Shown here piece after piece: positions 61,940 to 64,000 of a stretch of DNA of 64,000 bases; within the stretch, counting starts at the first letter, position 1, and each line of letters begins with the position of its first letter. Made by a program: the position numbers and the translations under genes. The notes below the pieces were generated by a model that made no database searches, was not told where the DNA came from, and was given only the letters and a program-made list of their open reading frames with translations. This DNA comes from Serinicoccus chungangensis (GTDB taxonomy: Bacteria > Actinomycetota > Actinomycetes > Actinomycetales > Dermatophilaceae). The DNA is taken from the NCBI RefSeq assembly GCF_001483745.1, contig NZ_LQBL01000003.1:63425-127424 (forward strand), in the 5' to 3' direction.

Positions 61940-61945
61940 GCATGG

Positions 61946-62011
61946 TGGTGCAGGAACGGTGCTGCGCACGGGTCGTCCTGGCGACCACCGTGCAGCACCG
62001 TTCCTGCACCA
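61946..62011. repeat. long hairpin repeat, copy 1 (upstream of AbiEi-like gene)
   Basis: Perfect 19-bp arms GGTGCAGGAACGGTGCTGC (61947-61965) and its complement (61992-62010) enclose a nested GGTCG/CGACC stem. A second, similar element lies at 63052-63121, so the two copies flank one gene. It starts 7 bp after the lipoprotein stop, so it may also act as its terminator. Confidence 0.9.
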
Positions 62012-62078
62012 TCCTGCTCGTCCACAGGGCGGAGGCTGCTCGCTGCGCGGGCCCGGCGCGCCGCGGCAGCATGGTCGC

Positions 62079-63047: not shown

Positions 63048-63051
63048 CCCC

Positions 63052-63121
63052 GGTGGTGCACGAACGGTGCTGCGGACCGGTCGCCCTGGCGACCACCCTG
63101 CAGCACCATTTCTGCACCACC
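63052..63121. repeat. long hairpin repeat, copy 2 (downstream of AbiEi-like gene)
   Basis: 22-bp arms (63052-63073 and 63100-63121) pair with three mismatches and enclose GGTCG...CGACC. Sequence and layout follow copy 1 closely, including CGGTGCTGC, CCTGGCGACCACC and TGCAGCACC. It starts 5 bp after the stop of the AbiEi-like gene. Confidence 0.9.
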
Positions 63122-63254
63122 CCCGGTTTCGTGGCGAGCGACGAGGTGACCCGGCTCTGCACCGCAGCGGGCGGCATACCGAAGGATTGAACCAAGGGAC
63201 CATCTCCGCTGCAGATCTTGCGGGAGAGGCGTGCTCGGACGGCCTGCGCCCGCA
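63122..63254. other. intergenic stretch before the metY leader
   Basis: No gene, RNA or repeat could be supported here beyond one GGCATACC octamer (63174-63181). The whole gap between the AbiEi-like gene and metY is 402 bp; the rest holds the hairpin repeat and the metY promoter and leader. Confidence 0.5.
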
Positions 63255-63283
63255 TTGACTTCGTGGTGACCGGCCTGTAGAAC
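63255..63283 (+). promoter_or_regulatory. promoter of the metY leader
   Basis: TTGACT (63255-63260), a 17-bp spacer, then TAGAAC (63278-63283), close to consensus. The ATG of the leader ORF is seven bases after the -10 box, so translation of the leader would begin at the very 5' end of the mRNA. Confidence 0.7.
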
Positions 63284-63290
63284 AGGACGC

Positions 63291-63326
63291 ATGACGAGCC
63301 GCTCCCGCCGAATGCGCCGCTGCTGA
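63291..63326 (+). CDS. leaderless sORF upstream of metY (MTSRSRRMRRC)
   Basis: Eleven codons plus stop: ATG ACG AGC CGC TCC CGC CGA ATG CGC CGC TGC TGA. The last sense codon is Cys and an internal Met is present. Leaderless Cys-containing sORFs act as cysteine-responsive attenuators in mycobacteria. Here the Cys codon and stop lie inside arm 1 of an RNA switch (63320-63330), 123 bp before metY. No other gene explains this promoter. Confidence 0.65.
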   Translation: MTSRSRRMRRC

Positions 63327-63404
63327 GCCCACCCCTCGCAGCCGACGCGCCGCGGACGACCCTTCTCCGCCCCGTCCCTCCCGCTGCTGAGGCGGGCTCA
63401 GCAG
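63320..63404 (+). promoter_or_regulatory. mutually exclusive hairpins in the metY 5' region
   Basis: Arm 1 CTGCTGAGCCC (63320-63330) and arm 3 GGGCTCAGCAG (63394-63404) are perfect 11-bp complements. Arm 2 CTGCTGAG (63384-63391) pairs with the last 8 bases of arm 3 in a local hairpin with loop GCGGG. The pairings exclude each other, and a ribosome at the sORF's Cys or stop codon would cover arm 1. This is the layout of a translation-sensitive attenuator. No U-tract follows, so control would act through Rho or on metY translation. Confidence 0.6.
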
Positions 63405-63449
63405 AGTGACCAGCACCCTGCCACCCCCCAGCGAGAGACGAGACCTCCC

Positions 63450-64000
63450 TTGAGCACCTACAGCGACTTCGCCACCCGGCAGATCCACGCCGGCCAGACC
63501 CCCGACACCCAGACCGGCGCGCGCGCCCTGCCGATCTACCAGACCACCTCCTACGTCTTCGACGACGCCGACCAGGCAGCCGACCGGTTCGCCCTGGCCG
63601 AGCTCGGGCCGATCTACACCCGCATCACCAACCCCACCACCGAGACGGTCGAGAACCGCATCGCCGACCTCGAGGGCGGCGTCGGTGCCCTGCTCGTGGC
63701 CTCCGGCTCCTCGGCCGTCACCCTGTCGCTGCTCAACGTCGCCGGCGCCGGCGACCACATCGTCTCCTCCCCCAGCCTCTACGGCGGCACCCAGAACCTC
63801 TTCGCGCGCACCCTGCCCCGCCTGGGGATCGAGGTGACCTTCGTCGAGGACCCGGCCGACCCCGAGGCGTGGCGGGCCGCCGCGCGCCCGGAGACCAAGG
63901 CGTTCTTCGGCGAGACGATCGCCAACCCCAGCAGCGACGTGCTCGACCTGCGCGCGGTCGCCGACGTCGCGCACGAGGTGGGCGTGCCCCTCGTCGTGGA
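63450..64000 (+). CDS. metY: O-acetylhomoserine aminocarboxypropyltransferase (sulfhydrylase), partial
   Basis: PLP enzyme that makes homocysteine from O-acetylhomoserine and sulfide, feeding MetH. The 183 visible residues begin STYSDFATRQIHAGQTPDTQTGARALPIYQTTSYVF, the family N-terminus. YTRITNPTTETVENRIADLEGG and ALLVASGSSAVTLSLLNVAGAGDHIVSS follow, with SLYGGTQNLF and FGETIANPSSDVLDL. The PLP-Lys lies beyond the window. The start is TTG at 63450, the only start codon fitting the family N-terminus. The leader upstream suggests regulation by cysteine supply. Confidence 0.9.
   Translation, partial: MSTYSDFATRQIHAGQTPDTQTGARALPIYQTTSYVFDDADQAADRFALAELGPIYTRITNPTTETVENRIADLEGGVGALLVASGSSAVTLSLLNVAGAGDHIVSSPSLYGGTQNLFARTLPRLGIEVTFVEDPADPEAWRAAARPETKAFFGETIANPSSDVLDLRAVADVAHEVGVPLVV

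Follow-up and report, generated by a model that had tools for sequence, protein, structure and literature searches.

Can a frame of only 11 codons, placed ahead of a sulfur amino-acid gene, set the expression of that gene, and by what means? The question is raised by the far end of the window (the whole 64,000-nucleotide stretch of Serinicoccus chungangensis DNA analysed here, from a genome of 3.56 Mb in 33 contigs), where a short open reading frame (sORF) precedes metY, the gene for O-acetylhomoserine sulfhydrylase. All features described below lie on the forward strand. The metY gene starts at 63450 and continues past the window end at 64000; its family matches (NCBIfam NF005872, E 4e-88; TIGR01326, E 3e-76) are partial and fall under the curated cut-offs because the window ends within the gene and contains only its first 183 residues. 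In the genome, metX follows directly (NCBIfam NF047917, E 2e-147, above cut-off). The link between the sORF and sulfur amino-acid genes, as proposed in a first-pass annotation of this DNA, is thus borne out. Among the 80 top matches (of at least 571), the nearest named MetY sequences come first from Serinicoccus and then from Ornithinimicrobium. Across 107 MetY proteins, only 13 Cys and 52 internal Met occur in 47,002 residues, and the MetY of the window has one Cys and no internal Met, a composition that would suit an enzyme needed under sulfur amino-acid shortage.

Two further observations concern the surroundings of the sORF. The metY start at 63450 is TTG, where nearly all aligned relatives have ATG and one (L037) has GTG. 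Upstream, a 78-nt palindromic element (63048-63125), which folds as DNA into a long hairpin (z -7.2), has four matching sites in the genome, of which two lie inside the window (the second at 61944-62014), and is a small dispersed repeat.

The short frame and where it occurs

The sORF occupies positions 63291-63326 (ATG ACG AGC CGC TCC CGC CGA ATG CGC CGC TGC TGA) and encodes MTSRSRRMRRC, which confirms the 11 codons and the Arg-Arg-Cys-stop ending reported in the first-pass annotation. Its conservation was examined in 109 regions, namely 79 of the 80 named MetY loci (those ranking highest in MetY similarity among at least 571; L054, which lacks upstream DNA, is not included) and 30 loci of the genus; the set contains near-duplicates, e.g., L011/L040 and L013/L041. 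A first scan required a Cys, and a repeat scan demanded neither Cys nor CGA. In the latter, a short frame built around an Arg-Met core was found upstream of metY in 88 of the 109 loci, across genera, so that the expected conservation of the sORF does hold. The dicodon Arg(CGA)-Met(ATG), at 63309-63314 in the window, is present in frame in all 88 leaders; 79 of them have no other candidate frame, and in the nine with several candidates the CGA frame was chosen. CGA is rare in metY itself (48 among 2242 Arg codons, about 2%), and the combination of CGAATG and Cys appeared in none of 2180 mononucleotide-shuffled regions.

Cys, too, is found in every one of the 88 frames (a single Cys in 49 leaders, two Cys in 35 and three in four). 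Its presence is constant but its location shifts (CCRMP, RMC, RRC, CRMC), and of the terminal Cys initially proposed it is the residue that is kept, not the place. The single-Cys layout had also been put forward, together with the duplicated arm, as a possible mark of a distinct class; since the leaders carry one to three Cys, variously placed, this role falls instead to CGA-ATG, the invariant part. Such invariance at the nucleotide level, for which no explaining pairing was found in the window's group, could point to a structured RNA or a protein-binding site, with the open frame present only by coincidence. However, across leaders the sORF varies in length (5 to 12 codons) and in its codons and yet retains its frame, start, stop and Cys; its start signal is promoter-spaced in some leaders and Shine-Dalgarno (SD)-led in others; and Rfam at gathering score gave no match over the window's own leader or over ten others, of which eight precede metY, one metX and one a regulator. 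This explanation is, in our opinion, very improbable.

The near-consensus promoter that had been described ahead of the frame can be read in the sequence with its hexamers, spacer and gap: TTGACT (63255-63260), 17 nt, and TAGAAC (63278-63283), followed after 7 nt by the ATG at 63291. The two hexamers agree with the consensus at 9 of 12 positions, the -10 being without its last T, and a stock promoter scan gave no entry at 63200-63600. Within the genus, metY was present in 31 of the 31 genomes searched, and loci were obtained from 30. Nineteen of these share the window's architecture, which consists of TTGACTTC, an ATG at a distance of 35-38 nt from the -35 and a peptide with RRM(R/C)(R/S)C as its last residues; TTGACTTC and this distance are kept in 19/19. 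The -10 is less uniform, with TAGA[AC] 6-8 nt ahead of the ATG in 16/19 and deviations in L015, L017 and L025. From the spacing, transcription would start at or beside the sORF ATG, and the sORF is probably leaderless.

Ten other loci of the genus have a SAM-IV riboswitch (five detected by cmscan, the others by eye) followed by an SD-led sORF encoding, e.g., VTCCRMPNR, VTRRMCGC or VTCRMCSR, and one (L036) has SAM-IV without such an sORF. Outside the genus, the leaders of Cellulomonas, Isoptericola, Actinotalea and kin typically have seven codons, M[ST][RC]RMCR, and mostly a TANNNT-like -10 some 7 nt ahead of the ATG. Among all 88 leaders, the sORF is SD-led and stacked behind SAM-IV in 17 (cmscan for nine, sequence strings for eight). 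There are two start modes, promoter-spaced or SD-led behind SAM-IV, and the peptide core is the same in both, which argues for its translation. Twenty scanned loci lack the sORF; 15 of them have SAM-IV and five have neither, and the two elements therefore look like alternative sulfur sensors. On a MetY tree (101 rows, quick method, with an untrustworthy branch for L023), the four architectures need nine changes.

More widely, pattern searches gave matches in 53 of 186 genomes at the family level and, independently, in 119 of 396 at the order level, some of them by chance in both cases; the reversed-pattern control at the order level yielded none among the matches listed. Fifty order-level sites were inspected (30 loci among the matches listed and 20 chosen to spread over families): 32 lie before metY, one before metX and two before a winged-helix regulator, and 15 have no assignable sulfur gene. 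In the 30 listed loci, metY stands behind the match in 18 (one of which, L177, is without an in-frame ATG/GTG); none of the other 12 was assigned to a sulfur gene, and 11 of these have no in-frame ATG/GTG. The 20 chosen sites comprise 14 with metY, one with metX, two with the regulator and three without an in-frame start. Class-wide, 17 matches were obtained among 394 genomes. Thirteen precede relatives of one winged-helix gene and encode MCCRMC[RHS] (tblastn), PF00486 being found in three of the proteins. L150 lies before metY, behind SAM-IV; L151 precedes metX; L154 has the same type of peptide as the thirteen, with a gene cut by the contig end; and for L166 no nearby gene could be named.

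Several observations were made along the way. A leader with MCCRMC[RHS] precedes a winged-helix (PF00486) gene of one related family in L152, L153, L155-L165, L215 and L216, and this gene possibly codes for a sulfur regulator that is itself subject to control of this type. Leaders of the same type also stand directly before metX, with MTRRMRS (no Cys) in L151 and MTRRMCS in L202. A second small frame before metY, starting with GTG, was discarded, as its frame shifts between relatives (by eye).

Pairings within the leader

According to the first-pass annotation, an 11-nt arm holding the Cys and stop codons is perfectly complementary to a downstream arm. This can be read directly: CTGCTGAGCCC at 63320-63330 matches GGGCTCAGCAG at 63394-63404. 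The former lies in arm a (GCTGCTGAGCCC, 63319-63330), the latter is arm c, and their 11-bp helix is termed P2 or a:c. Over the 19 leaders, 206 of 209 pair cells are kept (98.6%), vs. 28-45% of cells paired when the partner is slid by 1-3 columns. Because the sequence is so conserved, covariation is confined to one position, C-G to U-A, changed on both sides in two sister rows. Letter shuffles reached the covarying-pair count in 146/500 and the pair types in 141/500, and reached the number of cells paired, the both-side changes and the covariation score in 7/500 each, counts that are not probabilities. The pairing of these arms is thus upheld, but their covariation is weak, and the case for a:c rests on conservation.

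Arm a has a second possible partner, arm b (CTCGCAGC, 63335-63342), which lies 7 nt behind it and would form with it a local hairpin, P1. The core of P1 is intact in 17 of the 19 rows. In single-sequence folds its outer pairs are compensatory: one is U-A in L019, L020 and L022 and C-G in the others, and another is A-U in L018, L021, L023, L024, L030 and L038 and C-G in L019, L020 and L022. RNAalifold on the 19 rows selects a:c and not P1, and the minimum-energy folds of 15 of these rows contain a:c in ten and P1 in five (by eye). As modelled, P1 and P2 are mutually exclusive, arm a being common to both, in agreement with the earlier suggestion that the Cys/stop arm belongs to helices that exclude each other.

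The alternative partner originally named was a different one. An 11-nt arm is repeated, with CCGCTGCTGAG at 63317-63327 and again at 63381-63391, and the second copy plus a G constitutes arm a' (63381-63392), which could pair with b or c. An 8-bp pairing of the second copy with arm c is indeed possible, but it is intact in 8/19 leaders, with no both-side change, and was rejected as a conserved alternative beyond near relatives. Instead of the second CTGCTGAG copy, relatives conserve CTCGCAGC, i.e., the core of P1. A further candidate, a hairpin between GCAGAGTG and CACCCTGC (63401-63421) that would compete with P2, was picked out by eye, receives no support from the aligned columns and is weak.

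In the two other groups, comparable pairings can be drawn. The sORF core of Cellulomonas-like leaders can pair with the GCGCACG(C/T)TCGGC that follows it (single folds), although P1 is weakly predicted in the consensus (-3.2 kcal/mol). Their element b, found in 42 rows and lacking in eight, can pair with a (G/A)CGTGCGC further on, in which the variable base changes together with b: element and partner are GCGCACGC/GCGTGCGC in 7/42 rows and GCGCACGT/ACGTGCGC in 9/42, the variable pair being C-G in seven rows, T-A in nine and T-G in four. This partner beats at least 29 of 30 shuffles in 14/42 rows only. In SAM-IV leaders, a counterpart of a:c with 8-9 bp (GCTGAGTC:GACTCAGC) occurs in 8/17 and one with 6 bp in L027; the remaining eight yielded none.

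The fold of the window's leader is beaten by one of 200 dinucleotide shuffles (z -2.6), and a segment that leaves out the sORF part (63340-63455) does not stand out (z -0.95). The features of the leader are not due to chance: all 19 same-genus leaders of this architecture keep TTGACTTC, the core of the sORF and both arm 1 and arm 3 (i.e., CTGCTGAGCCC and GGGCTCAGCAG). A conserved promoter with a plain 5' UTR and no regulation would agree with TTGACTTC as the best-kept promoter part; the peptide and the exclusive helices, kept across species and genera, make it scarcely credible.

Sensing and output

What the comparison of leaders establishes is the conservation of the sORF, of its Cys and CGA-ATG and of two helices predicted to exclude each other. 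It appears probable, with ample room for doubt, that the leader is a ribosome-mediated attenuator of the metY-metX operon, responding to shortage of cysteine and perhaps of methionine too. Transcription would begin at or next to the ATG of the leaderless sORF. With sufficient sulfur amino acids, the ribosome would finish and depart, and the freed arm a could pair with b (P1) or c (P2); most transcripts would be lost before metY, most likely because transcription ends early in the C-rich spacer, perhaps by a Rho-type mechanism. When Cys (or Met) is short, the ribosome would remain on the Met-Arg-Arg-Cys end and cover arm a, so that neither P1 nor P2 could form, b and c would take other partners and metY would be made. 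The first-pass annotation had proposed ribosome position as the switch; presence vs. release of the ribosome is likelier, because the Cys codon lies directly before the stop and both states would cover nearly the same RNA.

We infer that Cys, and perhaps Met, is sensed and that metY is raised on shortage; Cys is not singled out, because every leader also keeps a Met codon. Alternatively, methionine or the slow CGA codon could be the sensed step in the same leader, with Cys secondary. The presence of Cys in all 88 leaders counts against this, as does its being usually the rarer residue, and single folds suggest that in some groups RNA pairing may be what preserves CGA-ATG. Conversely, CGA-ATG occurs in 88/88 whereas Cys moves, metY feeds methionine, and the metL peptide of Streptomyces lividans, also with RRMC, is labelled a methionine leader in the available text of PMC8079986. 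On balance, we grant this alternative a minor share of the probability.

The spacer between the sORF and metY (63327-63449) is C-rich and G-poor (49% C, 26% G) and without a T-run. C exceeds G in the spacers of 88/88 leaders (mean C/G 1.68), vs. 56/88 (mean 1.12) upstream of the sORF; T-runs (5 of 6) were found in 0/88 spacers, and terminator-like sites at 63200-63600 numbered zero. Control could also be translational, with the leader masking the metY start and a stalled ribosome unmasking it, as mycobacterial polycysteine leaders are described in the accessible parts of PMC9031893 and PMC13236596. With the sORF blocked in folding, however, 1/88 leaders gained more than 0.1 in predicted openness at the metY start and 9/88 lost more than 0.1; this prediction gives no support to masking of the start, and we see only a slim chance for translational attenuation. 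The lack of a terminator, the lack of start opening and the C-rich spacer together favor a Rho-type or other transcript-level output for the attenuator.

Comparison with known systems

A broader hypothesis, possible but doubtful, is that these leaders form a widespread new family of minimal, mostly leaderless attenuators of 5-12 codons. With an Arg(CGA)-Met-plus-Cys core, they would read sulfur amino-acid supply before metY-metX, sometimes before metX or a winged-helix regulator, and would be swapped with SAM-IV or stacked behind it, CGA-ATG serving as a dedicated ribosome pause site. If this is true, Micrococcales-type actinobacteria have a sulfur amino-acid sensor whose RNA is hardly longer than a single ribosome footprint, a protein-free element able, at one gene, to take the place of a SAM riboswitch or to serve as its backup. 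One could then also test in what way a leaderless ribosome detects supply through one hungry codon when there is no U-tract terminator. Our search found no description of the metY leader in the openly licensed literature, subscription papers being mostly outside its reach.

The SAM-IV riboswitch (RF00634) stands before metY in relatives and ahead of the sORF in 17 loci; it has no match in the window's genome, nor in the 20 kb around metY. Like the trp/ilv-type transcription attenuators of Actinobacteria, the window leader combines a leader peptide with exclusive helices, one of which overlaps the regulatory codons, as computed for P1 and P2 with their common arm a. Unlike them, it is without the U-tract intrinsic terminator of a classical transcription attenuator.

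The metL leader of S. lividans, which precedes metNIQ, is leaderless by RNA-seq and has no typical terminator, as far as the available text of PMC8079986 describes it. Its peptide, ...CMCRRMCAF, contains an RRMC stretch, comparable to the RRM(R/C) of the window-type leaders; in contrast to the window sORF, it has 29 residues and precedes another gene (PMC8079986). The metL tail pattern (Arg as CGN) was found in 1/296 class genomes, too sparse a distribution to establish descent of the two leaders from a shared ancestor.

Another close parallel is with the polycysteine leaderless sORF attenuators of mycobacteria (Canestrari et al., 2020, as cited in PMC9094748, PMC9031893 and PMC13236596), leaders that are also treated in PMC4633059. 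In the available portion of their 2005 survey, Seliverstov et al. (PMC1262725) found no terminator hairpin in the mycobacterial cys leaders, and reported that the methionine operons of Actinobacteria are not preceded by conserved RNA structures. As those partial sources present them, the mycobacterial leaders resemble the window leader in having a Cys-coding sORF before sulfur genes, in being leaderless (probably, here) and in having no terminator hairpin. The window leader differs in its 11 codons with one Cys rather than a run (CC or CCC occurs in some relatives only), in the invariant CGA-ATG, in its place before metY-metX and not before cys genes, and in its two conserved exclusive helices. 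With neither a poly-Cys run nor a U-tract, it is filed here as a variant of the mycobacterial and metL-type leaders, one that would work as they do.
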